Assembly (NCBI GenBank): GCA_019038815.1 | Contig: JAHOYS010000258.1 | Location: 1 to 34,776, forward strand | Direction of reading: 5' to 3' | DNA length: 34,776 bases | From: Desulfobacterales bacterium | GTDB taxonomy: Bacteria > Desulfobacterota > Desulfobacteria > Desulfobacterales > Desulfobacteraceae | Shown here: one piece after another, positions 2,925 to 34,737 of the stretch | How the letters are laid out: each line of letters begins with the position of its first letter | How positions within the stretch are numbered: position 1 is the first letter of the stretch | Notes under the pieces: generated by a model | What the model was told of the DNA's origin: nothing | What the model saw: the letters and a program-made list of their open reading frames with translations, nothing else | Database searches by the model: none | Translations under genes and position numbers: made by a program

Positions 2925-2933
2925 ATAATATAT

Positions 2934-2961: not shown

Positions 2962-2962
2962 A

Positions 2963-3000: not shown

Positions 3001-3074
3001 TCTCAGGTTGAGGATTTGAAAGGTTAGGAAAAACTCCTCAACCTTCACCTCGACGGGCAAATTTTGGCATACAC

Positions 3075-3130
3075 GCCTTGCTAAATCTGCCTTGCTAAAT
3101 CTGCCTTGCTAAATCTGCCTTGCTAAATCT
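3075..3130. repeat. Tandem array, 14 bp x 4 (gccttgctaaatct)
   Basis: Four perfect contiguous units. Confidence 0.97.
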
Positions 3131-3330: not shown

Positions 3331-3362
3331 TTTTTTAACCTTTCGAGTTAATTGCTATACTT

Positions 3363-3390
3363 ATAATACACTTTTATATACGCTTGTCAA
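3363..3390 (-). promoter_or_regulatory. Strong sigma70-type promoter (minus strand)
   Basis: TTGACA-16-TATTAT with an A/T-rich upstream tract. Confidence 0.7.
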
Positions 3391-3429
3391 ACAAAAAATC
3401 CTAAAAAACTTATTTTTTTTCTAAAATTT

Positions 3430-3572
3430 TTAAACGACCCTTATAGTTTTCACGTAAGATTCAAAATCAGGGTGGTTTTCATTTGCCATGTTTCATTTGC
3501 CATGTTTCATTTGCCATGTTTCATTTGCCATGTTTCATTTAAAATATTATCGTCTAATCCAAAATCCGTCAT
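3430..3572 (-). pseudogene. Small ORF disrupted by the 14-bp array (MTDFGLDDNIL[array]NENHPDFESYVKTIRVV)
   Basis: AAGGAG-ATG start; reads to a stop inside the array; removing 56 bp (4 x 14) restores a 28-aa ORF. Confidence 0.45.
3477..3540. repeat. Tandem array, 14 bp x ~4.6 (tttcatttgccatg)
   Basis: Four perfect units plus an 8-nt partial. Confidence 0.97.
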
Positions 3573-3583
3573 GTTATTCTCCT

Positions 3584-4633: not shown

Positions 4634-4647
4634 ATCTTTTTCTTCTT

Positions 4648-4683
4648 TTCCTTACTAATTTCCTTACTAATTTCCTTACTAAT
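4648..4683. repeat. Tandem array, 12 bp x 3 (ttccttactaat) in the primase leader
   Basis: Three perfect units; minus-strand copy reads attagtaaggaa (SD-like AAGGAA). Confidence 0.95.
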
Positions 4684-4734
4684 TTGCTTACGAAGACAAC
4701 TTGTAAAATCTCATGGCCCTTAGTGTTTTAACTT

Positions 4735-4768
4735 GGCACACTCTAAAGTGTGTGCCTTAACGTGTCAA
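4735..4768 (-). promoter_or_regulatory. Promoter with overlapping palindromic operator upstream of primase
   Basis: Minus strand TTGACA-17-TAGAGT; GGCACACACTTTAGAGTGTGCC (18/22 symmetric) covers the spacer and -10. Confidence 0.6.
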
Positions 4769-4832
4769 CGACGGTCTGAGGTCATCTAAGTCTTTATTCC
4801 ACAGTTGTTTAACGTGGTCTAAAAGCATTTAA

Positions 4833-6518
4833 TCAACGACCTTTTTTTTCAAGCAACGTTTCTCTGTAATATACATCAGGTATTGATGCATTTTTAGATA
4901 GGTTCATTTGACATATTTTTATTTTTTCTTTCAACCTTATCAGGGTGTTAGTCATCAACGTTTTAGTCATGTTTTTAATCTTCTTTTCAGGTTTACATGT
5001 TTTAGGATTTTTATATTCAGTGACGTATTTTATATTTAATTTTTGTAAATCTGACTTAGAAACGCCGGTGTCTCTATTTACCTCAGATGCGGTTAGTATT
5101 GGAATATGTTTAAGCAACGCATTTTCTTGCAAGGAGTTTTCTTCGTCCTTTTCTTTATGCTTTTCTCCAGCAACGGTGCCCTCATATTCAAGAATTAGAT
5201 TAGACTTATTATTTTTAAGTTCAATAGATTTTGTTTTAATTATTATTTCTGGTAGTATTGGTGTAGATTTTGTTTTTATGTATTTTAAATTAAGTTTAGA
5301 TGGTGAACCTTTTGTTTCAAAGGTCCAGTGGATATCAGCATTTAAAGCACCACTGCCTCTGGGGCCAGAGCCAGCGTTGTTGGTGTGATGGATTATTATT
5401 ACTGTAGCACCATCCCACATACGTTTTAATTCATCTGCGACGTTAACAAATATACCCATGGCTGCTGAATCATTTTCACTTATCCCACCCCAACATCTAT
5501 GAAGCGTATCAATGATTACTAATTTTGGAGTAACTTTTGGGTGCTTCTTTTTCAATGCATCAACAAACATTCTGGCTAGGTTCGGAGTTTCAACAAAGTT
5601 TTCTGGTCTATCATATACAATAAAGTCATCATTCGCCAGAACATATTTGTTTGCCTTTTCCCAAGCCTGCCTTCTTTCTTTGATTTCGTGTTGACCTTCT
5701 GCTGCAATATAAAATACGGAGCCTATATGGGAATTATTAACTTTATATTTGCCCAGGAATGGTAGCCCTGAGCATACACTACAAGCCATGTGGCCAGCTA
5801 GATAGGATTTTAACGTACCGGACATACCATAAATCATTCCAAGAGTATCATTATGGAAGAAGTCCTTTATAATCCATTCTTTATCCTCCATATCATCTTG
5901 TTTTTTCTTGTCTAATATGTGGTTAGACATGTTATCTTTAGAAGATAAATTCATAATTGTAGACATATTACTTAGATGAGTCTCATAATCATCTACAGTT
6001 ATTTTTTCTCCTTCATCAGTTTTTACATTTATTAATCTATCAAATTCTCTACGCTCTTCACTGATACTCCTATCTCTTATAAACTCATCTATATGGTCAG
6101 TAATATAGAGTGTAGTGCCCTCTGTAAGTGGGTTAGAGAGAATTTTCTCTAGTTGGTGAGTTGCCTCTGATATTAGGGTATGAGCGTTATCTTCTAATTT
6201 AAAATGATTTCTTATCTCTTTAATAATAATCTTTTTTTCAGGAAGACCGGGATATTTATCATTAAAATCATGTGCAATTTTTACAAAGAGAGCTTGATTG
6301 CTATTTTTAAAAATGCCCGGTTTATCTAAATAAATTAGATTTGCGGTATTAGATGCGTCGGTAAGAATGACTGTACATACATCAAACGGGTCATACTGAA
6401 TTCTTCTTTCTTTAATTTCTTCTTCGTCTAAATCAAAAGTGGGTTCGTGATTTTCTACTAATTTAATATTTGCCTTAGACGCTTTGTACATCTCCTCAAA
6501 TTCATTTTTACTTTCCAT
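4833..6518 (-). CDS. RepA-like AAA/RecA-fold ATPase (replicative helicase)
   Basis: P-loop GMSGTLKS, KLVIIDTLHR, VIIIHHTNNAGSGPRGSGAL; GGAGGA SD before MESKNEFEEM. Confidence 0.8.
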   Translation of the reverse strand: MESKNEFEEMYKASKANIKLVENHEPTFDLDEEEIKERRIQYDPFDVCTVILTDASNTANLIYLDKPGIFKNSNQALFVKIAHDFNDKYPGLPEKKIIIKEIRNHFKLEDNAHTLISEATHQLEKILSNPLTEGTTLYITDHIDEFIRDRSISEERREFDRLINVKTDEGEKITVDDYETHLSNMSTIMNLSSKDNMSNHILDKKKQDDMEDKEWIIKDFFHNDTLGMIYGMSGTLKSYLAGHMACSVCSGLPFLGKYKVNNSHIGSVFYIAAEGQHEIKERRQAWEKANKYVLANDDFIVYDRPENFVETPNLARMFVDALKKKHPKVTPKLVIIDTLHRCWGGISENDSAAMGIFVNVADELKRMWDGATVIIIHHTNNAGSGPRGSGALNADIHWTFETKGSPSKLNLKYIKTKSTPILPEIIIKTKSIELKNNKSNLILEYEGTVAGEKHKEKDEENSLQENALLKHIPILTASEVNRDTGVSKSDLQKLNIKYVTEYKNPKTCKPEKKIKNMTKTLMTNTLIRLKEKIKICQMNLSKNASIPDVYYRETLLEKKGR

Positions 6519-6721
6519 TATTTTCCTCCGGCCACTCATTCTCGTAATGATAACTATCTGAATCTATCAGTATAGAGTCAATTGGTTCTATTGGTTCTAT
6601 TGGTTCTATAGTTTTTATGGGGGGGAAGTTGAGGGGTTTCGTCTGGTAGAGTAAGTTGTTGTAGATATTTGATGTAAGCGTCACCGACAGCATCTATTTG
6701 TTTTTTTGTAAATTTTTTCAT
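6508..6721 (-). CDS. Small ORF split across two frames at a C7 tract (47-aa short form; 70-aa long form if shifted)
   Basis: AGGAAG-ATG start MKKFTKKQIDAVGDAYIKYLQQLTLPDETPQLPP; zero frame ends RTNRTNRTN*, alternative frame runs IKTIEPIEPIEPIDSI...NNGK* into the repA start. Confidence 0.55.
6581..6607. repeat. Tandem array, 9 bp x 3 (attggttct)
   Basis: Three perfect units. Confidence 0.93.
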
Positions 6722-7356: not shown

Positions 7357-7412
7357 AACAACAGTAAGTTGATGAATTACGAAGGAATGCCCGGCTTGTT
7401 GCCGGGTTTTTT
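7357..7412 (+). ncRNA. Candidate ~55-nt transcript ending in a terminator
   Basis: Predicted start after the 7345-7350 -10 box; GCCCGGC-ttgtt-GCCGGG-TTTTTT at 7389-7412. Confidence 0.35.
7389..7412 (+). terminator. Rho-independent terminator
   Basis: CCCGGC-ttgtt-GCCGGG-TTTTTT. Confidence 0.8.
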
Positions 7413-7489
7413 CTTGATAAAAATTTTTATTTTTTCTGGATTTTTTTATTCTAGCTGCTATACTATACATGTAGAGAAAAATACTTTGA
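7396..7489 (+). repeat. 94-bp perfect direct repeat, copy 1 (terminator 3' half plus extended -10 promoter TGCTATACT)
   Basis: Identical to 7960-8053. Confidence 0.97.
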
Positions 7490-7959: not shown

Positions 7960-8053
7960 TTGTTGCCGGGTTTTTTCTTGATAAAAATTTTTATTTTTTC
8001 TGGATTTTTTTATTCTAGCTGCTATACTATACATGTAGAGAAAAATACTTTGA
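7960..8053 (+). repeat. 94-bp perfect direct repeat, copy 2 (promoter retained, terminator 5' arm absent)
   Basis: Identical to 7396-7489, offset 564 bp. Confidence 0.97.
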
Positions 8054-8087: not shown

Positions 8088-8288
8088 ATGTGTCAACCGC
8101 ACAAAAATTTCCCATGGGATACAGAAGAAAAAATTGATTCTGATGTACAAGCGGTTTTTTCTGGATTTGTGCGGTCTTACAAGTACGGCCCGACATTTTT
8201 GCTTGACATGGATTCGCCACTAGGAAAAAGATTTTTGCAAGCACATCCTCCTCTACCGTCGGCAAAATGGAAAGGACCAAATGGCTAA
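8088..8288 (+). CDS. Hypothetical protein, 66 aa
   Basis: Downstream of the copy-2 promoter; 8-nt overlap with the next gene. Confidence 0.55.
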   Translation: MCQPHKNFPWDTEEKIDSDVQAVFSGFVRSYKYGPTFLLDMDSPLGKRFLQAHPPLPSAKWKGPNG

Positions 8289-8562
8289 AACAAAAAAACC
8301 TAAAACAAAAAAACCTAAAACAAAAAAACCTAAAACAAAAAAACCCGTGCTTAATCGGATTAGCAGGTTGGGTATGATTCCAAAGGAGTTTAAAAATCAC
8401 TACCGCAGGGCGTGGAATCATAGAGGTGGTAAGGACGCCATATATGCTTTCTGCCTTGAGTGTATGAAATTTGATAAAATTAAAATCAAACTTTGTAAAA
8501 ATACAGCCTGTCCGCTGTATGAGTACAAAATGGACGCCTTACCAAAAATTTGTCAGAAATAA
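8281..8562 (+). CDS. Lys-rich N-terminus plus C-terminal Cys motif (putative zinc-binding) protein
   Basis: (KTKKP)x4 then AIYAFCLECMKFDKIKIKLCKNTACPLYEYK. Confidence 0.7.
   Translation: MAKTKKPKTKKPKTKKPKTKKPVLNRISRLGMIPKEFKNHYRRAWNHRGGKDAIYAFCLECMKFDKIKIKLCKNTACPLYEYKMDALPKICQK
8287..8346. repeat. Tandem array, 15 bp x 4 (aaaacaaaaaaacct) encoding KTKKP repeats
   Basis: Four units; the last differs at its final base. Confidence 0.95.
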
Positions 8563-12601: not shown

Positions 12602-13869
12602 TAGACCATCCTTATGTAATTTAAACTTTTCAGTTCGCTCATCCAAAGGTTCATTTGGTTTTCTGCTTTGTTATAATCTTGCAGCATAAGATTCTTAAAA
12701 GCCTGCATAGACTCTTCTATTCCCTTCCTGCTATTACAAGTTGAATTCATGCCCATGTATACATTTTGCTGTGCTGGGGGAACTGCTGTAGGTTCAATCT
12801 CGGGCCTTTCTGGACCTCCGGGTCCAGCAGCACCAGTTTTACCTACTGGACCTGACGCCCCGCCTCCAAAAGCTTTTGGATTACGTGGCTCCCCCTTATC
12901 AGTTATTAATTTTTTACTAACCAAATAATCTTTCATAGCATTAAAGAAATCAAAACCAACGCCTTTTTCTTCATCATCTTCTATTCCAAATAAGCTTTTA
13001 ATCCAATCTCCGATTGAATTAAAAACATCTCCTATTGCATCCCAAACTTTCCCTAGTAGACCACCAACCCAAGTAAACAAATCAAGAATTTTACCCAAAA
13101 CCCATAAAATTGGTTTAAGCACATTTACCAGCAAAGTTATAATCCTAGCCAAACCACTCAACACGGCACCTAGGAATTTCCAAACTGGTCCCAACTCATC
13201 AAATACCTCAGTTAAAGCTTCTATAACTTCGAAAAATCCTTCGAATAGCGGGGCCATTGAATTGCCCAGCTTAACAGCAAAATGTTGGAGATGTACTTGG
13301 TGTTTCAAAAATACTTTAGCCGTTGCTGCGGACCATTTGCTAAGCTTAGAAGCCAAACCATACAATGCAGCCGATAAAATTAGTGCAAATTTCCATATTT
13401 TTTTAATTGCTTTACCAAATCCGCCAAATATTTTACCAAATTTTCTAAAAATATTAGAAAAAGTTTTACCAAATTTTCCAAAAATACTTTTAATATTTTT
13501 GGAAAATTTGGTAAAACTTTTTTTAACTTTCTCAGTATCATAGTCAATCTCCATTACTGGTCTTTTAACAATATCAGTACCACCGCCACCGCCACCGGCC
13601 CCGGCTGTACCACTTAACGTCTGCCCCCCCATACCACCAGCAACACCATAAGCAATCCCCCCAGCAACAGCAGCACTAGCGGCACCAGCACTAGCGGCAC
13701 CAGCACCAGCCGCAGCCGCAGCAGTTCCAGCACCTATAGCACCGCCTATAGCAGCGCCACCAGCAGCCGACGCCCCTCCACCTTTGCGTTTGGTATCATC
13801 TCCAACACCTTGACCACCTTTAATGCCGTCGGCTTCGAATTCTAGTTTTACACGGTATGTTTTAGCCAT
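12601..13869 (-). CDS. Short tape-measure-like protein
   Basis: Gly/Ala-rich and amphipathic repeats (FGKFGKTF..), hydrophobic segments, position in the tail module. Confidence 0.6.
   Translation of the reverse strand: MAKTYRVKLEFEADGIKGGQGVGDDTKRKGGGASAAGGAAIGGAIGAGTAAAAAGAGAASAGAASAAVAGGIAYGVAGGMGGQTLSGTAGAGGGGGGTDIVKRPVMEIDYDTEKVKKSFTKFSKNIKSIFGKFGKTFSNIFRKFGKIFGGFGKAIKKIWKFALILSAALYGLASKLSKWSAATAKVFLKHQVHLQHFAVKLGNSMAPLFEGFFEVIEALTEVFDELGPVWKFLGAVLSGLARIITLLVNVLKPILWVLGKILDLFTWVGGLLGKVWDAIGDVFNSIGDWIKSLFGIEDDEEKGVGFDFFNAMKDYLVSKKLITDKGEPRNPKAFGGGASGPVGKTGAAGPGGPERPEIEPTAVPPAQQNVYMGMNSTCNSRKGIEESMQAFKNLMLQDYNKAENQMNLWMSELKSLNYIRMV
13458..13522. repeat. Perfect 29-bp inverted repeat with 7-nt loop inside the tape-measure gene
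   Basis: AAAAAGTTTTACCAAATTTTCCAAAAATA-cttttaa-TATTTTTGGAAAATTTGGTAAAACTTTTT. Confidence 0.97.
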
Positions 13870-14395: not shown

Positions 14396-15700
14396 TTAAG
14401 TTCCAGATGCACAAATACTTGGACACACTGTAGCCAATGCGTCGTCTATTGTTTCGGCCCCCGCTCCAGCAGAATTAAGTTGTTTATCATAATATCTTGT
14501 GAAAAAATTCTGGAACACAGCGTCTCTTGAATTAGCGGTTGTTACATCCACATAATCGTCTATAATCCAATCTGTTGCTCCCGGCACAATATTGTATGCC
14601 ACATTTCCAAAAATAAATGCTGGAGCTATGATTAGGTCATCAATTAAAATTTGTTTGTCAATTGTTACTGTATCGCTGTCAGTCCAATCAATGAATACCG
14701 TTAGTTGGTCTTCATCTCTTGTCGCCGGTAAAGAGAAGAAAACGGAGTAGAGTTGCCATGTTCCGGCTAAGGTACTTGGGTTGGCACTGAAAACCTCAAT
14801 CGGAGAACTGAGTGTTTCATTTTCTGTGTCAATAAAAATGGCTAGATTTGAAGTACCATCCACTTCGTTCTGGTCTTTGAGTCTAACTGTCATGCAATAT
14901 ATTGTATTTTTATCCAGAGATAAGTTTTGGGTCAGAGTTGCAATCGTTGTACCCAGTGTTCCCTCACTGTCGGCTTCTAATAACAAACAGGAGTCTCCAC
15001 GGTATTGGTTGGTCTCTTCTATCTGTATCAATGCTGCTCCGGCGTCGATGGTCCAGCTTTCTGGTTCATTTAATGTCCATGATTCGAAGTCTCCATTAGA
15101 AATTAAATTTGAACCAATGGATGCTGAAGCTGTATCACTGCCATTACCTAAAGGTCTCCAAGATGTTCTGCTAAATTCTAGCTTTCCGGCCACAGAAAAA
15201 GTTGGACTTACAGACCCGGTAAATCTATCTGATGTACATCTGAACTGTACAACCTCATCAAAAATACCTTCAGCATCATTACCATCGATATTAACTACAG
15301 AAGCAAGAACTGTACCATCACCAGTATTACCGGTAGCAGAAACAGAGGGAGTAGTTATTACATTGGCGTTAATTGTTTCAGAGTCCTCAATCATCCTAAG
15401 ATTAAGAAGGTTAAGAATTTCATCAGAATCGGTTGTGGTTGCAATTAACTCATCCTTGAGAGATGCTAAAACCTCGTCCACATATGTTAATCCAAGACCT
15501 ATAGTTTCTTCTAGTCCTGTAGCTGACGAAATAAATGATTCAGTCAGACCTATAGTTTGCTCCGATTCAGACGTTGCGTATTCATCTAATGCGGCTTCAA
15601 CGTAATCAGAAGCTATTAATGTTTGAACATCAAGCATACGATTTGACATACAAACATATACTCCGATTTTACTAAAAATATCTGTGTAATCTACTGCCAT
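14396..15700 (-). CDS. Structural protein with carbohydrate-binding (CBM-like jelly-roll) segment
   Basis: NLISNGDFESWTLNEPESWTIDAGAALIQIEETNQYRGDSCLLLEAD pattern. Confidence 0.55.
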   Translation of the reverse strand: MAVDYTDIFSKIGVYVCMSNRMLDVQTLIASDYVEAALDEYATSESEQTIGLTESFISSATGLEETIGLGLTYVDEVLASLKDELIATTTDSDEILNLLNLRMIEDSETINANVITTPSVSATGNTGDGTVLASVVNIDGNDAEGIFDEVVQFRCTSDRFTGSVSPTFSVAGKLEFSRTSWRPLGNGSDTASASIGSNLISNGDFESWTLNEPESWTIDAGAALIQIEETNQYRGDSCLLLEADSEGTLGTTIATLTQNLSLDKNTIYCMTVRLKDQNEVDGTSNLAIFIDTENETLSSPIEVFSANPSTLAGTWQLYSVFFSLPATRDEDQLTVFIDWTDSDTVTIDKQILIDDLIIAPAFIFGNVAYNIVPGATDWIIDDYVDVTTANSRDAVFQNFFTRYYDKQLNSAGAGAETIDDALATVCPSICASGT

Positions 15701-22452: not shown

Positions 22453-23796
22453 TTAACTCCACATATCGTCGTCATCGAAGCTGTCGTCTTCACTTATGAC
22501 GTAATCAAAGGCTGGTTGGTTATCTACAGTTAAAAAAACATATCTAGTACTGTCGATTGCATGGTTATATTTACTTATTGGTTTGTCCGTATTTAAATCG
22601 TTTTGATAACAGGAAAACTCATCAAAAATACCGGCAGGTATTCTTTTTTCTTTTAATAGTTCACAATTACTTTTTTGACAATTCTTGTCAAAAAATATAC
22701 CTTCATGATTTAATCTCGTTTTAATTAAATCAATACCAATCTTTATTCCGTCTTTACATTTTTTAACAGGATTGATAGAAAGTCCTGCATTTCTTATCTG
22801 CTCAATGCTTCTCGGCTCTGCTGAGTCTGCAACAATACGTATGTTTTCATACCTTTTTCTAATGTCCTTTAAAATATCAATCCACTCAGATATTTGTTTT
22901 TCTGAATAAATATGAGTTTCTAATACGTATGCAATTTCTTTTCTAAATCCGATTACTACGGCAGCACCAGCAGTCCATCCAAAGTCAACACCAACATATA
23001 CAAAATCAAATTCATCAGGAAAATCTTTTCTATCCCTACAATGTTCTTCCTGACTAAATTCATCAAATACTAGGTTGTCGCCCATGGCCCAAAGACCATC
23101 TAGCAATCTTTTCTTTTGAACACCCGACAATGATTCTGTCAAGTTTTCCATATAGTCTTTACCAGCATTAGTCCAATGACATAATTTTTCATTACCCTCT
23201 ACATGGTGAAAGTGTTTTGGGTTACACTTATGTCCAACAAAAATTCTTTCTCTCTTGGGGCTGGGTTTTAAAAACCTCTGGTTAAGCCAATGCTGTGGCC
23301 ATTGTGGATTAGTACAGACCAATACCTGCCGCCAAGATTTTCCTGTCTCTGGGTCTATCAAATGAGTACAAGACATTCTTGTAGTAATCGCACCAAAATC
23401 TTCTTCAGTTAGCTCGTGTCCCTCATTGATATATACAATATCGAATTCGGCGGACATGATACTATCTTTATTATCCATTCCTTGACAGACAAGTTCTGAG
23501 CCGTTTTTATACATATAAGACTGCCGATTGGCCCGCCTAGGGCCACCAGCGACCAAGTAATGAGATTGGCCTAAAATTTCATCTTCAAATGTCTGTAACA
23601 CACTCTGACTCATGCTCGTTTTTGTTTTTCTTAAAATTAAACCTCTTGCATTTGGGTAAAGACTCATCAACACATGTAGCTTGCTTAGAATTGTAAAAGT
23701 TTTGGAAGACCTAGTTGGCCCCTCTACCAACAATTCAAAAGCTTTAGATTTTATAACCCTTTTGCTCTCTCGTTGATTTTTAAATTTTTTCCCCAT
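22453..23796 (-). CDS. Terminase large subunit
   Basis: P-loop GPTRSSKT, IVYINEGHEL, nuclease YVGVDFGWTAGAAV. Confidence 0.9.
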   Translation of the reverse strand: MGKKFKNQRESKRVIKSKAFELLVEGPTRSSKTFTILSKLHVLMSLYPNARGLILRKTKTSMSQSVLQTFEDEILGQSHYLVAGGPRRANRQSYMYKNGSELVCQGMDNKDSIMSAEFDIVYINEGHELTEEDFGAITTRMSCTHLIDPETGKSWRQVLVCTNPQWPQHWLNQRFLKPSPKRERIFVGHKCNPKHFHHVEGNEKLCHWTNAGKDYMENLTESLSGVQKKRLLDGLWAMGDNLVFDEFSQEEHCRDRKDFPDEFDFVYVGVDFGWTAGAAVVIGFRKEIAYVLETHIYSEKQISEWIDILKDIRKRYENIRIVADSAEPRSIEQIRNAGLSINPVKKCKDGIKIGIDLIKTRLNHEGIFFDKNCQKSNCELLKEKRIPAGIFDEFSCYQNDLNTDKPISKYNHAIDSTRYVFLTVDNQPAFDYVISEDDSFDDDDMWS

Positions 23797-24878: not shown

Positions 24879-27800
24879 TTAATATAGGGGGTTGGCCGTG
24901 CCATCAGTTAAGCCTACGGTCCCGTCTTTAAATACCAATTTACTTTGTGTTGAACTGTAATAAATGCTAAAGTTTGGAGCAGCTGCGTCAGCTAATGTCG
25001 TCGGACTAATCGTGGCATCACCTCTGATGCTCATGCCTAGTACCCTATCCAAGTAGATTTTGAAGTGGGCTTCTACTGGTGGGGCTACAATGGTCGGTGC
25101 GTAAGTTCTAGTAATTCTAATATATTTAGCAGACGTTATTGCATCGCCGTCAGAGGCATTTGAAGCTGCCCAAGCACCGGGAGCGGACCAACTAATCTGC
25201 CCCGACTGTTGGAACCCGGTTGTACCATCCGTTAATATTGGTAGTGTTGCCCATGTGTCATTCCCGGTAGAATACTCAAATGTAGCAACAATATTCTTAC
25301 CACCACCACCTAACTCCGTATATTCAAGAACTTCAAAATCAATGGCATTACCGATTAGGATTTTATCGCCATTAGCCCCAAATATAGTCATATCTGTAGT
25401 GCTAGTATCCAGAAAAGCCGTGCCTGCTTGTGGTGCCCCTGTAACTCTATCGGTTGTTACCCCGCCAACAGCCACGAAATCATAGCCGTAGCTTGGGTCA
25501 ACTGCGGTTGCACCTTGTACAATCACGGCGTTAGTGAATCCGGGAAGTATGCGTAGTGCTGTCGTGTTGGCATCTGAACCATTAACAGTAACGGCCAAGT
25601 AGGCATCAATTTCTGTCGTGGCGTCTGCACTAGTTGCTTCAGAAACATCCACCCTGATGCCCATCCCTCCACCAGTATCACCGGGCTGTAGGTCTCCAGA
25701 TTGATAATCAGCAACAATTGCTTGTACCGCATTATATCCGTTAGCTTTAGCTTCAAAAAAGCCACCGTCAACACCATCAGCCCCGGCTTCTAGCTCTACT
25801 TCAAACATATAGTTAGAATACTGGCTGCCAACCCAATCATTTGAATGTACATCAAAATGGCCCTCGCTGTTGCATTGGAATTCACTATGGTATCCGTCTC
25901 CCATAACGATTTGCGGATGAGTTATTACATAGTATCCAAAATCGGCCAAGTCGTCATCCCATCCCATTGTGTGCAGAACGACATTATCAGTATCAATGAC
26001 GGCAGCAATTGCCGCCATCGCCCCTCTCTTGGCTCCAGTCCTAACAATTATCCAGCGGCCAACATCATCTGAATCGAAAGTTCCGGCGAGGTCTGTCATA
26101 AGAGCCTCAAAAGAACCACCCGTCAGGTCAAAATCTGCTTCATGTGCTGTGTGGTCGTCGATTATATCGAGTCCACCACTATCAAAGCCTATAAGGGAGC
26201 CGCCCCATTCCAGAGCTTCACTTCTAATACCTGATGAAGTGTAAAATCGTCCGTTGCCCTGTATTTGTGCAAGGGTAGCGTCAGAACTATCTGTCCATGT
26301 TTGTAGGTTAGCCGTTTGTGAGGCGTTGCCCTTGACAATTGATTGTACAACATCGGTGGCACCACCAACAGTACTTACGCCCGTAGTAAGAAAGTCGCCA
26401 GTAGTCTCAATATCCGTATCGTCGAAGTCGGCTGTGCCCGCCGTACTATAATCCAAAATAACATCTGTGCCGCCCAAGGCGAGTAGTTGCCGTGCATCCC
26501 AATTGATAGAATTACCTGCTGATGAATCCTTCAGCAGCAGGGTGTTCCAGTTGAGGACTTCAGCGCCAGCCGAATGCATAGTACCTACCGACCAGTCAAG
26601 AGCAGCTGCTCCGCTGGTCATAAGTTGCTCAATATCCAGGTCTATGACGGTCGTACCACCCGTGTCTTTGAGTTCTCGGTTGGTCACATCAAAAGCATTT
26701 TTGGCACTATCGTCTATAATATCAGAAACGCCAGTCAAATCGTTGGCATCAAGGTACAGGTCGCCAGACAGGTTCATAGTACCAAACGCACCATTGCCAG
26801 TAGTGGTTATGTCGCCTGCGAACGTCGCATCGGCGCCCTCAAACTTCATCGGCTCGACTACGGCTCCGTCTAACATCGTGTGGAACGCCCACTTGGACGT
26901 TTCGTCATCGACAGTAGGGTCAAGCCAACTGACTTCCAGGTTAGCGGCTTGGGAAACCCCTCCGCCGCTCTCTTCGAGTTGCATCAACCATCTGAAGCCA
27001 AGGCCTACTCCACCAGAACCACCCCCACGAGCCAGTCGCATCGTGTGGATAGTGAAGATCTCATCTGCAGAGACCTTCGCTTGCTGTGACAATAGACCAG
27101 AACCCTCTATACCGCCTGGATTGATTGACAGGTCCTTCTGCGCAACCAGAGCACCACAATTTGCTTCAATTTCGTCGGAACCCTCATCCCAAACTATAGA
27201 ACCCGAATTGGTCAGCCCGAGGAAATTGATAGTGGAGTCGGTTGCGGCCGTCGCATCTCCAAGATTGAACGTGTGGCCGATGGTAAGGTCGCCTGTGGTC
27301 GTTATGTCACCTGCTTGGAAATCAAAATCTCCTGCCGAGTCAATAGACAAGAACGTGGCCCAAGCCCCACTATTGTATTTCAAATCCAAGTCACCGGACG
27401 TGTTGTTCCGGACAAACCCATATCTTGTGGCGGGCGTAGCACCAAAAGTTAACGGGATGTTATCATACATCCTGAACCCGTTGGTTGTTTTTTCATCTAT
27501 AAATGCGACTGGTGCCCCAGCCTCCAGAAACCTCCACCCCGTCGCAGCGTCAATATTGAAGTAGCCTAATGAATCAATGGACAACTTACCCCACCACGTA
27601 GAACGGTCATCAAATCCATTAATCTGTATGCCAGCGGAGTGAGCAAGTTGATTTACCTGCATAAACCCAGCATCAATATCGCCGGTAGTCTCAAGGTCCG
27701 TGTCGCCGAAGGCTGCTGTGCCCGCCGTACTATAATCCAAAATAACATCTGTGCCATCTGTAGCAAGCAGTTGCCTATCTGTCCAATCTATTGAACTTTT

Positions 27801-28091
27801 ACCAGACGTATCATCTAAAAATTGAGAATCAGCATCTATAACTGCTATGCCCGTTGATTCGTTAATTACGCCCGTAGTTACCTCATTAACATCTATAATA
27901 TCGCCCGCATTAGTAGGTGACAAAGTAGTCCCAGTTCGGGTCCAAGGTCCAAATGCACCAGTACCATCAGAGGCGATATTCAGCCACTTGCTAGTGGCTG
28001 AATTATATCTTAATATATCATTATCTGCTATGCTGGATATGTTGACATCATCAACCAACTCCGATAATCTTTGTAAAATTCTAAATGCCAT
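24879..28091 (-). CDS. Large tail fibre-like protein with internal repeats
   Basis: 1070 aa, repeated D(L/I)ETTGD, GDITTTGN.. segments. Confidence 0.7.
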   Translation of the reverse strand: MAFRILQRLSELVDDVNISSIADNDILRYNSATSKWLNIASDGTGAFGPWTRTGTTLSPTNAGDIIDVNEVTTGVINESTGIAVIDADSQFLDDTSGKSSIDWTDRQLLATDGTDVILDYSTAGTAAFGDTDLETTGDIDAGFMQVNQLAHSAGIQINGFDDRSTWWGKLSIDSLGYFNIDAATGWRFLEAGAPVAFIDEKTTNGFRMYDNIPLTFGATPATRYGFVRNNTSGDLDLKYNSGAWATFLSIDSAGDFDFQAGDITTTGDLTIGHTFNLGDATAATDSTINFLGLTNSGSIVWDEGSDEIEANCGALVAQKDLSINPGGIEGSGLLSQQAKVSADEIFTIHTMRLARGGGSGGVGLGFRWLMQLEESGGGVSQAANLEVSWLDPTVDDETSKWAFHTMLDGAVVEPMKFEGADATFAGDITTTGNGAFGTMNLSGDLYLDANDLTGVSDIIDDSAKNAFDVTNRELKDTGGTTVIDLDIEQLMTSGAAALDWSVGTMHSAGAEVLNWNTLLLKDSSAGNSINWDARQLLALGGTDVILDYSTAGTADFDDTDIETTGDFLTTGVSTVGGATDVVQSIVKGNASQTANLQTWTDSSDATLAQIQGNGRFYTSSGIRSEALEWGGSLIGFDSGGLDIIDDHTAHEADFDLTGGSFEALMTDLAGTFDSDDVGRWIIVRTGAKRGAMAAIAAVIDTDNVVLHTMGWDDDLADFGYYVITHPQIVMGDGYHSEFQCNSEGHFDVHSNDWVGSQYSNYMFEVELEAGADGVDGGFFEAKANGYNAVQAIVADYQSGDLQPGDTGGGMGIRVDVSEATSADATTEIDAYLAVTVNGSDANTTALRILPGFTNAVIVQGATAVDPSYGYDFVAVGGVTTDRVTGAPQAGTAFLDTSTTDMTIFGANGDKILIGNAIDFEVLEYTELGGGGKNIVATFEYSTGNDTWATLPILTDGTTGFQQSGQISWSAPGAWAASNASDGDAITSAKYIRITRTYAPTIVAPPVEAHFKIYLDRVLGMSIRGDATISPTTLADAAAPNFSIYYSSTQSKLVFKDGTVGLTDGTANPLY
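26431..26471. repeat. 41-bp perfect intragenic repeat, copy 1
   Basis: gctgtgcccgccgtactataatccaaaataacatctgtgcc; copy 2 at 27715-27755. Confidence 0.95.
27715..27755. repeat. 41-bp perfect intragenic repeat, copy 2
   Basis: Identical to 26431-26471; encodes TDVILDYSTAGTA. Confidence 0.95.
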
Positions 28092-28813
28092 TAGCTAATC
28101 CTTAATTTATTCATGAAAACTTCCCTACTGTTTACATTCTCTTCCAACCTTGTCATAACCTGCTCGATTGGAGTATATGGCAGTATCTCATTATCGCTGC
28201 AACAAATTATTTCTTTTTTTAATTTTACAGCTTGTTCTTTACACCACAGCAGCCCCTCTGTGGTACGGTCAACGAAGGTGTCTAAATGAAGCTTAGTTGG
28301 ACCAAAAAAGTTCTCTCCCTGCTTAGCACAATCAACTCCGGCAAAAATTATAGGATTAAATCCAAGATTACACGCAATTTGAAACAGTAGGGGTGTTGCC
28401 GTTCTAGACCCGTGTAATCTTAGTAAATTTTGATGAAAATCCCACTCTCCAACTATTTGGCGATATTCAAGCCTTGGTAACGCCTTACAACAGTTTTTAC
28501 GGCATAAAATAAGAGAATCCCTTGCTAATTCGTCTATTTCTTCCTGTTCTTCGATGTTTTTAGTATAAACCGACGCATCTTGAAAGAAAAGAATGTTCGG
28601 AGTCAGCATTTTATAGGCTCTATTTACTCCAATAGTAAAATAAAAATCTTCTAGCTCCTCTGCATATTCTTCTAGACAATTCAAAGACGGTCCACAACCC
28701 AATAAAAAGCAGGGGATATTTTTGAACATCCCCGGCCATTCATGCATAATTTTTTTTCTAACCTCAAACCGAAGTCTATATCGAAGAGGTGCTCTCTGAA
28801 CTCTTCCTGCCAT
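28091..28813 (-). CDS. MptE/DUF115-like putative glycosyltransferase-associated protein
   Basis: PCFLLGCGPSLNCLEEY..IGVNRAYKMLTPNILFFQDASVY. Confidence 0.6.
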   Translation of the reverse strand: MAGRVQRAPLRYRLRFEVRKKIMHEWPGMFKNIPCFLLGCGPSLNCLEEYAEELEDFYFTIGVNRAYKMLTPNILFFQDASVYTKNIEEQEEIDELARDSLILCRKNCCKALPRLEYRQIVGEWDFHQNLLRLHGSRTATPLLFQIACNLGFNPIIFAGVDCAKQGENFFGPTKLHLDTFVDRTTEGLLWCKEQAVKLKKEIICCSDNEILPYTPIEQVMTRLEENVNSREVFMNKLRIS

Positions 28814-28814
28814 A

Positions 28815-29456
28815 CTAGTCCTTTAGTGACTTGACAACTTTTTTGGTGCTTTTATCCTGATTTTCAGCCAATTTGTTGTTGAAAGCTTCTCTATCGTCTG
28901 GAAGCAACGTATCTTTGGCTTTCTGAACACTCTCTACGATGTCCTTCGTTATTTTACCCTTTGTAACGGCCTGATAAGCTCCGCCCAAAATAGGAAGTGC
29001 CGAGAATAAAGGTTTTGCAAAAACAGATACACCGGGAATAAAAGTAGCTCCGAATAGTAATGCAATTCCACCTAAAGAAAAGAAAATTATATTACGACCT
29101 GCAATCCATAGACGCTCGATGAGAGATAAATCTCCGCCTCCGGCGGAGATTTTACCAGCCTTAGTATCTAACAATATCGGCTTCCTGTTAATGCTCCCCT
29201 CTATAGCACTCACGCCAAACGGAGACATTATGCGTGCCCCAAAATACTTATCTGTGGCTGTGTAACTCTCACCCTCGTAGGAATAGTTCTTACCCTCTTC
29301 TCCTGTTTCAACAACAATTTTTATTTCGTATTCATCAGGTAATTCTTTGACGGCCTTCACAATATCTTGGACCAGTGGCGGTGAAGCCTTCTCTACTTTA
29401 GTCGCTGGCTCACACCCAATACAAAACAACATGGCGAGACATAATAATTTATTCAT
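28815..29456 (-). CDS. Lipoprotein with later TM segments
   Basis: MNKLLCLAMLFCIGCEPATK lipobox; ..NIIFFSLGGIALLFGATFIPG.. Confidence 0.65.
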   Translation of the reverse strand: MNKLLCLAMLFCIGCEPATKVEKASPPLVQDIVKAVKELPDEYEIKIVVETGEEGKNYSYEGESYTATDKYFGARIMSPFGVSAIEGSINRKPILLDTKAGKISAGGGDLSLIERLWIAGRNIIFFSLGGIALLFGATFIPGVSVFAKPLFSALPILGGAYQAVTKGKITKDIVESVQKAKDTLLPDDREAFNNKLAENQDKSTKKVVKSLKD

Positions 29457-29610
29457 TTGTATACCTCTTGATGAGTATGGTTGTTTTGGTAGAGCCTTTA
29501 GTAATATCACTCGATGTGATACTAGGCCCGGATTTGCGTGCAGTCACGTCTGTCTTTGCAAAACTGCATCCCGATATTAGTAGTAGCATGATAATTAGAA
29601 ATTTTTGCAT
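29449..29610 (-). CDS. 53-aa lipoprotein (not in ORF track)
   Basis: AAGGGGAG SD; MQKFLIIMLLLISGCSFAKTDVTARKSG..., overlaps the next start (ATGAATAA). Confidence 0.75.
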   Translation of the reverse strand: MQKFLIIMLLLISGCSFAKTDVTARKSGPSITSSDITKGSTKTTILIKRYTNE

Positions 29611-29645
29611 AAGTTCTCCCCTTTTAATGTAGCACTTACATCGTT

Positions 29646-30326
29646 TTAACTGCGAAATTCTGTATAATCCTTAGTCTTTAACCACTTCCTTCTCAGTCGT
29701 CTGAATTTTCTTCGGTCCATACTCGTTTTAAAAGAATCCTCATTGGCTTCCATAAGGTCATCAGAATTATGAAGCCGCCACTCATGTTTAATAATGCATT
29801 TATCTATAAATTTTTGTTTTCCCTCAGTTACGATTGTTAAAAAGTTGTCACAACAGTGCGTGGTAAAGTCTGGATGATATAAATGAGTCATACCGTCATA
29901 CATCCGGCGTCCCATTATGGTCAGCGTGCAGATGTTTCTTTGTCTGTTATCGAAGTACCATAGCAACCCATCTAAATCGGGAAAATACTTCTCCATATCA
30001 TTCCTAATAATATCATCATACCCTTTTATCTGAGGTATTTGGTCGTCAGATACTAACACCACTATGTCCCAAGGTGTGTCTGGCACATCTGAATTGCAAG
30101 CTTCAATCTTTGTTTTACTATTCCCAAACTTTATAGAACAATTTTTAAGAGATTTAACAAACTCAATGATATTGTCATTGTTCATAGAGTCGTCCCCCCG
30201 GTCGGCAGATACTACAAATTCATAATCATCTTTATTTGTCATAAACTCTAAGTACTTGGTAATAGTAGACTTAAACAGTTCTGGACGACTTCTAGTTGGG
30301 TACTTTAGAAGCAATTTTAATCCCAT
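29646..30326 (-). CDS. Glycosyltransferase-like protein
   Basis: MGLKLLLKYPTRSRPELF..YEFVVSADRGDDS..WDIVVLVSDDQIP GT-A-like motifs. Confidence 0.6.
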   Translation of the reverse strand: MGLKLLLKYPTRSRPELFKSTITKYLEFMTNKDDYEFVVSADRGDDSMNNDNIIEFVKSLKNCSIKFGNSKTKIEACNSDVPDTPWDIVVLVSDDQIPQIKGYDDIIRNDMEKYFPDLDGLLWYFDNRQRNICTLTIMGRRMYDGMTHLYHPDFTTHCCDNFLTIVTEGKQKFIDKCIIKHEWRLHNSDDLMEANEDSFKTSMDRRKFRRLRRKWLKTKDYTEFRS

Positions 30327-30398
30327 TTTTTCTCCTTTTTTAATTTATCTAATTTGGTCTTTAAACGGCATAACAACTCCTTAATAAATAAGTTTATA

Positions 30399-31115
30399 TT
30401 ATACCTTATTCCAACCTAAAATACCAGTTAAAACATCATCCGGGTGAAACACTGGTTTTTTATATCTTTCTAAATATTTAAGTTGTTCATCAACACTGTG
30501 CCCAGACTTAATGACGCTCTCTTTGTATTCGGGTTTGTTCGTTCTATCTATTGGCATACTCGGATGATACGATTCATAATAACCGTCCTTGAAGAAGGTG
30601 AAACCCGTCACAAATAATTCTTTAATTTTAAACTGCATCAAATAGTCAATCGCCAACGTGCCCGTACAAGGTTCACCCTGTGTCGCATTCCTGATTTGTT
30701 TATGTATATCTAGTGGGATATAGACAAGTGTGAAATCATTATATTTATTATTAATTTCTTCCAGAGCAGCATATTGTTTTTGTGTAAATCTTGTATATGC
30801 AGGATGATGAACAACTATATATTTCAACCCACTAGCCTTAGCCGGTATATAATAATTTATATAAACATCTTCCATACGCTCTTTGTAATCCTCCTTACGA
30901 GAATTGTGGCACATATAATCCTCGGCCAGACCAGTAATTAATATGTCTGTACGAAGTCCTATGTCTTTATGAAGCTCTTCCGGTGCCGGAAGAGCTGAAT
31001 TCATACGTACAACAATATCATATGAATCTATGAGTTGTCCAGAATCCTTAAGAGACGGGGATGGACCAACAAGACATATTTTCTTTCCATATAAATCTGC
31101 CACAATGCTATTCAT
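30399..31115 (-). CDS. Sialyltransferase (GT29)-like protein
   Basis: KKICLVGPSPSLKDSGQLIDSYDIVVRMNSALP sialyl-motif-like; ATGA overlap with upstream micro-ORF sets the start. Confidence 0.65.
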   Translation of the reverse strand: MNSIVADLYGKKICLVGPSPSLKDSGQLIDSYDIVVRMNSALPAPEELHKDIGLRTDILITGLAEDYMCHNSRKEDYKERMEDVYINYYIPAKASGLKYIVVHHPAYTRFTQKQYAALEEINNKYNDFTLVYIPLDIHKQIRNATQGEPCTGTLAIDYLMQFKIKELFVTGFTFFKDGYYESYHPSMPIDRTNKPEYKESVIKSGHSVDEQLKYLERYKKPVFHPDDVLTGILGWNKV

Positions 31116-31201
31116 TTGACCCCTTTGCGTCTTTTTATATGACAATCCTTACTAAAACTACTCTTCTCTAACAATAGTTCACAACCTATACATTCTTTCA
31201 T
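31112..31201 (-). CDS. 29-aa Cys micro-ORF MKECIGCELLLEKSSFSKDCHIKRRKGVK
   Basis: GGAG SD, ATGA coupling to the next gene, upstream TGTTATAAT extended -10-like sequence. Confidence 0.5.
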   Translation of the reverse strand: MKECIGCELLLEKSSFSKDCHIKRRKGVK

Positions 31202-31240
31202 ATCATCTCCTTAAACCAAAATTATAACATAATTTTAATC

Positions 31241-31786
31241 CTATTTCCATAAGCCAATGTATAAAGTATGGTCACCTTGGAGACCCTCGCTATACATATA
31301 AATATCAGTTATATCTGAGTACTCCTCAAGCTTAACTGTCCACCAGCCCTGACTATTGGCTGAAGGATGAAGCGTCTTACCGTCTTCTGTCCTGTAGCAT
31401 GTCTCCTTCTTGAAGCATACTGTCACGAAGTACCTCTCGCTTACTCGTTTCATCTCCCTTAAGGAAGCGTCAACTTTCTCCTCATCCAAGTGCTCTAAAA
31501 CATCGAAAGACGTACACATATCAAACTCTTTATCTTTGAATGGAAGGTCATGGGCTGAAGCTATTACATCAGCACTTGGACATGCTATGTCTACACCGAC
31601 TTTATCTTTGTCAGATGCCATTGGATAACCCTTCACAAACTCATTGTGACCGCAGCCAATGTCTATAATACTCTTCGGAAAGAGCTTTAAAAGCTTTTGA
31701 AGATGGTCCCTACTATGGTTATCTGAGCCATATTTGCCGTATTTTGCTTGGTTATTATAAATATATTCATAGTCTTCTTTACTCAT
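31241..31786 (-). CDS. Class I SAM-dependent methyltransferase
   Basis: SIIDIGCGHNEFVKGYP..VGVDIACPSADV..FDMCTSFDVLEHL. Confidence 0.8.
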   Translation of the reverse strand: MSKEDYEYIYNNQAKYGKYGSDNHSRDHLQKLLKLFPKSIIDIGCGHNEFVKGYPMASDKDKVGVDIACPSADVIASAHDLPFKDKEFDMCTSFDVLEHLDEEKVDASLREMKRVSERYFVTVCFKKETCYRTEDGKTLHPSANSQGWWTVKLEEYSDITDIYMYSEGLQGDHTLYIGLWK

Positions 31787-31807
31787 AATCTATATTCCTC
31801 TTAATTT

Positions 31808-31951
31808 TTATAAGTGGTCGTTAAAATAATCAACGCCTGTGATTGCGTTTGACGCCAAAAAGCAACTCTGTTTGCCCAAAATTATATGATTACATGTTTT
31901 ACTAATCGGTATTAGCCCACCGAGATATTCGATATCAAATTTTTTACTCAT
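31808..31951 (-). CDS. 47-aa small ORF MSKKFDIEYLGGLIPISKTCNHIILGKQSCFLASNAITGVDYFNDHL (not in ORF track)
   Basis: GGAG SD and 8-nt overlap with the preceding ORF. Confidence 0.55.
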   Translation of the reverse strand: MSKKFDIEYLGGLIPISKTCNHIILGKQSCFLASNAITGVDYFNDHL

Positions 31952-32282
31952 AATCATTCTCCTCCATGTTTTTAAATTCTAAATAAGTTGTTGATAATTC
32001 CAACGCCCGTTCATCGTGAAAAATGTTCTCAAACATAGCAATGACTTCTAATTTTCGGCACACCTCGCCATTATATTCTGAGACATCTCCAGTCATGACT
32101 GTATTTATTTCAATCTCACTACAGGTAAAGTGCTCATAACCCTCAACGGGACAAATACAGTGCAGAAAATCACACTCTATTTTTTCGTTTCGATTATCAA
32201 TTTGGTCTACACCGTCTTCATAATCGAAAGTGAGAATCAGATGTTCTTCTAAACTGTCCTTCAATCGCCCCACTTCTCCCAT
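31944..32282 (-). CDS. Hypothetical protein, 112 aa
   Basis: GGAAG SD before MGEVGRLKDSLEEHL; overlaps the rSAM stop. Confidence 0.55.
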   Translation of the reverse strand: MGEVGRLKDSLEEHLILTFDYEDGVDQIDNRNEKIECDFLHCICPVEGYEHFTCSEIEINTVMTGDVSEYNGEVCRKLEVIAMFENIFHDERALELSTTYLEFKNMEENDYE

Positions 32283-32899
32283 CGCTTCTTCCTCGCCCAT
32301 GGACAAATGACACACAATTGTCCACATTTTTGTATCTCTTTTTTCCAATTATCCGTTACTTCTATACACGTATCTGTGTCTAAGCCCGGACCTGCACAAC
32401 AAGAATATAATCGCCCCTCAAATAAAACGGGACCAATATCTAATCTTTCACAAGCTTGGTCTCTACCTGTCATGTCTGGAAACTGGACATGAACAACGTC
32501 GCCAATTGTAAGTTTTTCTTCAGGCACAATTGTCTGAATATATTGGCATAATTTTTCGTTGTCTTTACAGCCTTCATAAGTTTTTGAGGAATAATGACTT
32601 ACATTTACTTGGTCAAACAACTCAAATGCTTTTTCATTTCCTTTTATCTTGAAACCATCTGTCTGTAGAATTAGTGTCTTAGGTCTATATAGTTTTATAA
32701 ATGTTTTTATATATTTATAAAATTGTTTATGAATTGTAGGTTCACCACCAGTTATAACTACTTCTTCCATATCCTGAAAGTACTTAGAATATTTTTCTAA
32801 ATAATCAAAATCATTATCATGTTTAAATTCGTTATAAGCCGTTCCTAGACTGCACCAATGGCAAGTTCGGTTGCACCTGCTCGTTATACTAAACTGCAT
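32261..32899 (-). CDS. Radical SAM enzyme with C-terminal Cys cluster (SPASM-like)
   Basis: CNRTCHWC (CX3CX2C), VVITGGEPT, C-terminal CERLDIGPVLFEGRLYSCCAG...KCGQLCVICPWA. Confidence 0.85.
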   Translation of the reverse strand: MQFSITSRCNRTCHWCSLGTAYNEFKHDNDFDYLEKYSKYFQDMEEVVITGGEPTIHKQFYKYIKTFIKLYRPKTLILQTDGFKIKGNEKAFELFDQVNVSHYSSKTYEGCKDNEKLCQYIQTIVPEEKLTIGDVVHVQFPDMTGRDQACERLDIGPVLFEGRLYSCCAGPGLDTDTCIEVTDNWKKEIQKCGQLCVICPWARKKRWEKWGD

Positions 32900-32920
32900 T
32901 TTATCTGTTCTTAAAAGAAT

Positions 32921-32942
32921 TTTTATCCTCCTTTTATCCTCC
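32921..32942. repeat. 11 bp x 2 tandem duplication (ttttatcctcc), SD-like on the minus strand
   Basis: Minus strand ggaggataaaaggaggataaaa. Confidence 0.85.
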
Positions 32943-32944
32943 TT

Positions 32945-33631
32945 TTACACTCCTGATGCTACTAAGACATAACCCTTAGTATCGGGTGGCCCATATGTTA
33001 ATAATTTATTTTTACTTGTATCTGTGAATTTCATTTCGAGCTTAGAAGCAATCACGGATGCTATTGACTGGTCATGACGGTGCCCTAAGCATCTCTCATC
33101 AGCCGAGCACTGTCGTCTATCGTTCTTCCACGGGCCTGAGAATACTTCTTTATTTTTACTATATTCATACCAAGTATAAAAGAAGTCCTGACAGATGGAA
33201 GTAGTAAAGTCAAAGCCCATGACGTTAGCCATAGCATGAGGCAAATCCATTGCTTCATCTCTCGTCAAATTCATTATTTCCAATGACTTATCTGTCATCC
33301 AGTTCCCAGTGTTCCAACCATTCTGTTGAAGATAATACCCCTGTTCATCGATTATATCCCAGATAGCATCTAGCCGCTTCGTTACAACACAGCCTGCATC
33401 TATCCAAAGAACTTGCTCATACCCTTGGACTCGTGCGATATTAATAACAAATGGTTTAAATCCGTAATTAATTTCTTGATGTGTTGGGCACCCTTCTGGG
33501 TACTCTGTATAAAACTTCATCTCGCCTATGTGATAATCAAGAACACTTCTTCGCAATTTTCCAAGGGCATTTCGGTATCGTCTCGAACCTTCATCATCTA
33601 TTCCTAAACTTATTACAATACGTTTTTTCAT
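32945..33631 (-). CDS. Glycosyltransferase-like protein (GT-A fold candidate)
   Basis: ..YEQVLWIDAGCVVTKRLDAIWDII.. Confidence 0.6.
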   Translation of the reverse strand: MKKRIVISLGIDDEGSRRYRNALGKLRRSVLDYHIGEMKFYTEYPEGCPTHQEINYGFKPFVINIARVQGYEQVLWIDAGCVVTKRLDAIWDIIDEQGYYLQQNGWNTGNWMTDKSLEIMNLTRDEAMDLPHAMANVMGFDFTTSICQDFFYTWYEYSKNKEVFSGPWKNDRRQCSADERCLGHRHDQSIASVIASKLEMKFTDTSKNKLLTYGPPDTKGYVLVASGV

Positions 33632-33720
33632 TTTCCTTCTCCTTAATCAATTGTTCAAATTGTTGACATCCTCATCTTTTATAAGCTTCGCCTGTTTTAA
33701 ATTTTCTGCATTTTGATAAT

Positions 33721-34320
33721 TTAGTTCCTCGTTAAAAGCAGGTTTTCGGCGTTCTCATATACGACCTTATACTTCAATGGTGCTAGACGCTCAATAATTT
33801 TTTGTTGATTCCCGTCGTGCTCGATTATGACACAGCTACAGTGTCTCAACTCCTCCCATGGGAACCTCACAAAGAGTTGAAAGCTGCTTCCCTCCACGTC
33901 AATATCAATCATGTTAAAGTCCTTACCAAACTGTTGCAGCAAGGCTGCAACAGTTATGCTTGGTATTGATATAATCTGCCAATCAACCCCTCCGGCCTTA
34001 GTACTCCACTTATCTACATGGTCTGTATTTGAAGAAGATATGGCATCGCCCTGCGAGTCATAAAATTCTATCATACCCCCATCAACGGTGACGGCTGCAC
34101 AGACTAACTCGACATCATGGCTCCTGACGTTTCGCATGAGGTTAACGAAGTTGACAGGCGAAGCCTCAACATCGACTCCTGACCAACCGCTCTCAACCAG
34201 ACAAAATGAATTAGAAAAAAGTTTTCCATCGTAGGCTCCAATGTCCAAAAATTTCCCCTTGACATCTTTGAAGTGTTCTAGTATATATTTTTGTTCGTCA
34301 TTTTGCGAATAATTTTTCAT
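33721..34320 (-). CDS. FkbM-family methyltransferase
   Basis: GKFLDIGAYDGKLFSNSFCLVESGWSGVDVEASP..FNMIDIDVEGSSFQLF. Confidence 0.8.
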   Translation of the reverse strand: MKNYSQNDEQKYILEHFKDVKGKFLDIGAYDGKLFSNSFCLVESGWSGVDVEASPVNFVNLMRNVRSHDVELVCAAVTVDGGMIEFYDSQGDAISSSNTDHVDKWSTKAGGVDWQIISIPSITVAALLQQFGKDFNMIDIDVEGSSFQLFVRFPWEELRHCSCVIIEHDGNQQKIIERLAPLKYKVVYENAENLLLTRN

Positions 34321-34331
34321 TGTCTGGGCCT

Positions 34332-34372
34332 TATTTATTTTGAGGTTCCCTGTATTTATTTTGAGGTTCCCT
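34332..34372. repeat. 21 bp x 2 tandem duplication (tatttattttgaggttccctg)
   Basis: Two contiguous near-complete units. Confidence 0.93.
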
Positions 34373-34376
34373 TTTT

Positions 34377-34435
34377 AACGCTAGTGTAACGCTAGTGTAA
34401 CGCTAGTTTTTAACGCTAGTGTTTTTAACGCTAGT
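34377..34435. repeat. Five iterations of aacgctagt at 11-15 bp spacing
   Basis: Starts at 34377, 34388, 34399, 34412, 34427. Confidence 0.95.
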
Positions 34436-34737
34436 GTAGATTTATTGATTACATTCTGGATGCCTTCTTTCTGTCGTTCTGTGGCTCGCACATCAGTTAC
34501 ATACTGTTGACATAACTCAACTATTTCTTTAAGAACTGTACTGTGATATTCGCCGTCATAGGTGCCTATGACGGCATCTCTGAAATAAATATCACTTAGT
34601 GTGTAAAAAACATCCATGTACTCGATTGAGTAAACTAGGCCCCACTTATTTTTATATACGTCTACCGCATATTTCCCCTGCTCCAATGGCAATCTTTCTA
34701 TTTTGTCAATCTTTAAATATAATTTTTCTGTATTCAT
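34381..34737 (-). CDS. Hypothetical protein whose C-terminus is encoded by the repeat array
   Basis: AAAGGAT SD (in terminal overlap); C-terminus STLALKTLALKTSVTLALH from the array. Confidence 0.6.
   Translation of the reverse strand: MNTEKLYLKIDKIERLPLEQGKYAVDVYKNKWGLVYSIEYMDVFYTLSDIYFRDAVIGTYDGEYHSTVLKEIVELCQQYVTDVRATERQKEGIQNVINKSTLALKTLALKTSVTLALH

Follow-up and report, generated by a model that had tools for sequence, protein, structure and literature searches.

A gene block in a small tailed phage joins a GT29-family glycosyltransferase to methyltransferases and a radical SAM enzyme and points to glycan modification

According to PMC12363180 (citing Freeman et al. 2023), virions are glycosylated by phage glycosyltransferases (GTs) in the mycobacteriophages Che8, Corndog, and Myrna, with gp110 named as the GT essential for capsid glycosylation in Che8. 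The Maf (MAF_flag10) flagellin glycosyltransferases carry out Ser/Thr O-glycosylation with acids activated by cytidine monophosphate (CMP), using a PF01973 domain that resembles CstII (PMC11339370). Here, we describe a block of genes that very probably performs glycan chemistry of some kind, in the 34,776-nucleotide (nt) contig JAHOYS010000258.1 (the window) from a Desulfobacterales bacterium (GCA_019038815.1). The window encodes GTs, as the mycobacteriophages do, but its set is larger and includes GT29, Maf-like, FkbM, and radical S-adenosylmethionine (SAM) enzymes. It shares PF01973 with Maf, and the corresponding gene adjoins that of a large, Ser/Thr-rich putative surface protein; however, whereas the Magnetospirillum Maf has three domains (PMC11339370), the window protein is a single domain of 240 residues and is accompanied by no flagellin. 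Phage glycan islands are known as a category, and what is new is the GT29–methyltransferase module together with the Maf-like/radical SAM combination in a 35-kb phage. Sialyltransferase-family enzymes are best known from animals, and phage glycan genes are, to our knowledge, usually reported singly. A literature search of limited extent gave no report of phage GT29 or phage sialyltransferase cassettes.

The window represents a phage contig that is circular and complete. An exact 55-bp repeat common to both contig ends closes it into a circle of 34,721 bp, and the gene block therefore runs on across these ends. Since the window encodes an HK97-type capsid, portal, terminase, tape measure, tail fiber, primase, and helicase, it belongs to a tailed phage. 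Its terminase is ~30% identical to those of Streptomyces phage Dagobah and other phages. A search of IMG/VR brought up no near relative; single-protein scans there with the terminase, capsid, radical SAM, and GT29 proteins returned nothing, and relatives were reached by alignments only. The contig is part of a 2.83-Mb metagenome-assembled genome (MAG), a binning that is no proof that the MAG bacterium is the host.

The block covers 28091–34737 followed by 1308–117, all on the minus strand and tightly packed, and at ~7.9 kb takes up 23% of the genome. In order of transcription, it consists of 1308–691, 737–117 (GT2), 34737–34381, 34320–33721 (FkbM), 33631–32945 (GT8-like, weak), 32899–32261 (radical SAM), 32348–31944, 31786–31241 (class I methyltransferase), 31145–30399 (GT29), 30326–29646, 29510–28815, 28813–28091 (MptE-like), and 28091–24879. 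The initial annotation, made from the sequence by a model, had described a contiguous minus-strand block of roughly 7 kb lying across the contig ends and between replication and packaging genes. Its open reading frames (ORFs), its continuity, and its position (primase/helicase at 3584–6539, large terminase at 22453–23796) were all recovered; the block is dense, as claimed, but larger, and includes a lipoprotein gene that is not a glycan gene. Because most enzyme assignments in the block lie above curated cut-offs, this is no chance pattern.

The protein encoded by 30399–31145 can be firmly placed in the GT29 family of sialyltransferase-fold enzymes, as had been proposed, since sequence, motifs, and fold all agree. 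It matches PF00777 (2.3e-7, 30.9 bits versus a cut-off of 23). Using tblastn, we found relatives in Stenotrophomonas phage DLP_6 and in a 462-kb jumbo phage (LR756500), and seeding an alignment with both brought us to 31 viral loci and 17 bacterial ones. The sialyl motifs L and S (IDSYDIVVR, and G162 with TGFTFF) are kept in 19 viral rows, in which D40, R47, G63, G162, G181, and F184 are invariant and H216, by analogy probably the catalytic His, is found in at least 90%. When compared to the PDB, a profile of these 19 homologs matched mammalian ST3Gal1 (3.7e-11) and bacterial CstII (3e-6). An AlphaFold (AF2) model with a predicted local distance difference test (pLDDT) score of 73, partly of low confidence, was used in Foldseek, and its first 30 matches in the PDB were all GT29 proteins (best E 5.7e-7), with moderate template modeling (TM) scores of 0.40–0.52. 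The GT29 alignment showed no match to the MptE-like protein in a profile comparison. Motifs L and S, the conserved His, and the fold are thus common to the sialyltransferases ST8SiaIII, ST3Gal1, and ST6Gal1 and to the window protein, which differs in being ~240 residues long and phage-encoded and in having neither a signal anchor nor a known sialic acid supply. Its likely true start is an ATG at 31115 (238 residues), overlapping the stop of a 29-residue ORF (31201–31112) in which a CxxC motif was read by eye.

Both methyltransferases of the initial annotation stand above cut-off, as PF08241 (Methyltransf_11, 4.7e-10) for the class I SAM enzyme (31241–31786), whose subfamily recurs beside phage GT29 genes, and as PF05050 (4e-9) and NCBIfam TIGR01444 (4.1e-11) for the FkbM-family O-methyltransferase (33721–34320). 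The "at least five" GT-like proteins were reduced to four with library support: the GT29 enzyme; a putative MptE/Maf-like GT (28091–28813; PF01973 6.3e-10, 39.5 bits versus 34.6); a GT2 enzyme (117–737; PF00535 4.4e-7, above cut-off, phrog_14775 4e-33); and a putative GT-A enzyme with an SDD motif (29646–30326), which matches phrog_14945 "glycosyltransferase" (2.1e-5) and no Pfam family. In tblastn, the GT2 protein matched the Che8 gp108 and LittleE gp15 glycosyltransferases with 31–34% identity, and it is also related to other actinophage GTs. A fifth candidate, possibly GT8-like (32945–33631), has a VLWIDAG motif and a weak PF01501 match (E 0.086), and its single-sequence structure model has a pLDDT of 31, too low for use. 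Another possible GT-A protein (691–1308) is suggested by the motif alone, DxD-like in HCECDW and read by eye, with no match in profile libraries or by tblastn. As for the radical SAM enzyme (32261–32899; PF04055 4.7e-11, 43.6 bits versus 29.5), its CX3CX2C motif (CNRTCHWC, residues 9–16) and the predicted second cluster of C-terminal cysteines (150, 167, 168, 178, 192, 196, and 199) are both there, but the SPASM domain PF13186 gave no match up to E 1. Among the block enzymes, hydropathy peaks at 1.62, in the MptE-like protein, and no membrane helix is clear in any of them.

We then asked what surrounds GT29 in other viruses. The 84 genes within ~4.5 kb of GT29 in 11 viral loci include, by Pfam, methyltransferases, GT1, GT2, and epimerases, as well as five cytidylyltransferases (PF02348) and three MptE-like genes. 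A NeuA-like cytidylyltransferase (CMP-sugar synthetase) gene lies beside the nearest relatives of the window GT29, and across ten loci (L100–L104, L113–L115, L117, and L129) the cytidylyltransferase adjoins GT29 or sits one gene downstream. In a tree, the window GT29 falls on this cytidylyltransferase side (96/95), at a position inside it that is not firm. A second GT29 clade shows a fixed order of methyltransferase, small GT, and GT29 in ~25 viral loci including DLP_6, a count in which some loci are near-identical or are one contig retrieved twice. Profiles built without the window recover its GT29 (6e-32) and its methyltransferase (1e-10), whose subfamily has an invariant LH...WW signature, and neither GT29 nor the trio methyltransferase occurs in 80 terminase-selected loci (1.02 Mb). 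The methyltransferase is present in 4 of 12 independent GT29 clusters, defined at 60% identity, versus 0 of 80 terminase loci (Fisher P = 1.8e-4), a recurrence to be read with caution because the methyltransferase loci were retrieved by a query built from GT29-linked members. The trio's small GT did not match any of the window's three GT candidates in profile comparison. The DLP_6 and LR756500 islands likewise have GT29 beside methyltransferases and other GTs, but their other genes differ, and the radical SAM, FkbM, and MptE-like genes of the window are unmatched there. The nearest parallel is viral contig L178, where 2153–5863 encodes, in a row, a methyltransferase of the window-type subfamily, a radical SAM/SPASM protein, a 2-oxoglutarate-Fe(II) oxygenase, and one or two MptE-like proteins (sub-cut-off). 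Co-conservation, which the initial annotation had put forward as a check, is therefore partial: the methyltransferase–GT–GT29 part recurs, whereas the radical SAM, FkbM, and MptE-like genes, like the three GT candidates, had no relatives in 50,697 phage records or any fetched viral locus. The radical SAM motif, used as a degenerate DNA pattern, had no match in viral contigs. The radical SAM, MptE-like, GT8-like, and 691–1308 proteins also had no relative in ~300–400 genomes per query from the order or phylum of the MAG.

Other features were seen in these viral contigs. The L178 row precedes a gene resembling a single-strand DNA-binding protein. GT29 adjoins GT7 (beta-galactosyltransferase family) or GT6 in L104 (7227–9881) and L099 (7264–8699), all three families being best known from animals, with SIS-domain and cytidylyltransferase genes present in L104 as well. 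In L109 (2106–8657) and L111, a capsid gene distantly related to that of the window lies ~6 kb from GT29.

We tentatively propose, as a reading that falls somewhat short of an even chance, that the block is a cytosolic glycan-modification island that acts late in infection and equips at least one virion protein with a short, methylated O-glycan. In this scheme, for which we infer the acceptor, the donor, the order of steps, the role of the radical SAM enzyme, and the membership of all genes in one pathway, the MptE/Maf-like enzyme would place the first sugar on a Ser or Thr of a virion protein, for which the 1070-residue product of the next gene is the most likely candidate. The GT2 and other GT-A-like proteins would extend the glycan, the GT29 enzyme would add an acid sugar from a CMP-activated donor, O-methylation by both methyltransferases (class I and FkbM) would cap the product, and the radical SAM enzyme might alter a sugar or a residue. 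As the phage has no CMP-sugar synthetase of its own, the CMP-sugar would come from the host and might be CMP-Kdo (3-deoxy-D-manno-oct-2-ulosonic acid). A Clostridium Maf enzyme accepts both CMP-Kdo and CMP-N-acetylneuraminic acid (PMC11339370), which makes host CMP-Kdo a possible donor, provided that the MAG is the host. The MAG has one strong cytidylyltransferase match, KdsB-like. From its start sequence, we take it to be KdsB.

Three features favor a virion acceptor: hydropathy suggests soluble enzymes, late genes follow directly on the block, and the gene coupled to the MptE-like one encodes a large, Ser/Thr-rich repeat protein. This protein (24879–28091, minus strand), a putative virion appendage or adhesin and the candidate acceptor, has an ATG that overlaps the MptE-like stop as TAATG. 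It contains 18% Ser plus Thr, a 117-nt internal duplication, and an N-terminal phrog_29752 match (2.3e-5); no phage homolog was found. Such richness is not confined to this protein, since 14396–15700 reaches 21%.

Several findings weigh against this proposal. No locus among those examined holds the whole block, so that of the glycan pathway initially suggested the chemistry is supported (GT29, MptE/Maf-like, GT2, FkbM, and partial recurrence) but a co-conserved single unit is not. The trio clade of GT29 is not that of the window protein, and the window methyltransferase is nearer to phage homologs away from GT29 (L169, 2e-14), which sit beside oxygenase-like and collar-fiber-like genes, than to those of the trio. 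The Che8 match is gp108, whereas the essential capsid GT named in PMC12363180 is gp110. What points to the acceptor is gene overlap alone. No cytidylyltransferase, NeuA, or NeuB was matched among the scanned phage proteins, and we rejected the two NeuB-family matches of the MAG, reading them as DAHP (3-deoxy-D-arabino-heptulosonate 7-phosphate) synthases because one has an aroB-like neighbor and the other is fused to a prephenate-dehydratase-like part.

The main rival, which we regard as rather unlikely, is that the block remodels a host surface glycan, such as lipopolysaccharide (LPS), capsule, or S-layer, and so blocks superinfection or masks receptors. FkbM, GT2, and GT29-type enzymes do serve in surface glycans, the MAG encodes a KdsB-like CMP-Kdo synthetase, which would suit LPS chemistry, and the genes that accompany the GT29 islands of large phages (aminotransferases, epimerases, and GT1) are typical for polysaccharide synthesis. 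However, the block has no flippase, Gtr-type membrane protein, acyltransferase, or clearly membrane-spanning enzyme, its sole membrane-type protein being the 28815–29510 lipoprotein, and it is followed directly by packaging and structural genes. O-antigen-conversion proteins are likewise absent from it, and a gtrABC-type module, which would bring a membrane flippase and a bactoprenol GT with membrane helices, was set aside for want of these marker genes. This, and the fact that the Maf-like gene is coupled to that of a giant protein of the late region, makes us lean toward the virion. Less probable again is a set of unrelated cargo genes brought together in a tolerant site. It would account for the radical SAM, FkbM, MptE-like, and GT8-like genes having no relative in the fetched viral loci by direct comparison, for several genes having their own ribosome-binding sites and gaps of 45–157 nt, and for the lipoproteins and unassigned ORFs interspersed in the block, but not for the fact that every assignable enzyme other than the radical SAM protein has sugar chemistry, that the methyltransferase–GT29 neighborhood recurs, or that in L178 a methyltransferase of the window's subfamily is independently combined with radical SAM and MptE-like proteins.

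Very unlikely, in our view, is a peptide natural product or signaling molecule matured by the radical SAM enzyme and decorated by methyltransferases and GTs. Although the radical SAM core weakly matches peptide-maturase models (HxsC 1e-10, core only, far under cut-off) and small unassigned ORFs lie close by, all NCBIfam matches cover the generic core and fail their cut-offs, SPASM was not found, and several glycan genes would need another reason to be there. DNA hypermodification by GTs and methyltransferases acting on modified bases has hardly any likelihood: phages do glycosylate hydroxymethylated bases, but no thymidylate-synthase-like or other base-modifying gene, the expected marker, was seen among the scanned proteins, and we know of no base-modifying role for the GT29, FkbM, or MptE-like families. 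A bolder form of the virion proposal, in which a Maf-like O-transferase and GT29 cap small-phage virion proteins with a methylated Kdo-like or nonulosonate acid, the radical SAM enzyme makes an unprecedented sugar or linkage, and the trio forms the common core of a glycosylation module widespread among viruses, appears improbable. What the findings do reveal is a broad phage branch of GT29, in which a methyltransferase and a small GT recur as partners and one clade adds a CMP-sugar synthetase. It thereby becomes testable whether phage particles or infected cells carry acidic, methylated glycans, which would bear on particle recognition, host range, and defense evasion.

The remaining genes of the block, on the same strand, have no Pfam or PHROG family. 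The 28815–29510 product was rejected as a glycan protein because a lipobox (LFCIGC) and a hydrophobic segment (hydropathy peak 2.10) identify a lipoprotein, whose likely start is ATG 29456. A small lipoprotein ORF (29610–29449) overlaps its start, and this tandem lipobox pair is reminiscent of spanin or exclusion lipoproteins. ORF 31944–32348, of uncertain start, shares 88 nt with the radical SAM gene. The gene 34381–34737 encodes a 118-residue protein with tandem repeats at its end, which are formed by one of several short perfect or near-perfect tandem arrays (units of 11–28 nt; 3075–3144, 3477–3540, 4647–4691, 8285–8345, and 34332–34437), many for a phage genome. Promoter-like matches in the window are at chance level. 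An exact 94-nt direct duplication (7396–7489 and 7960–8053) is found in a sparsely coding region, and 42-nt inverted repeats, 83–88% complementary, lie inside the tape-measure-like gene (13426–13535).

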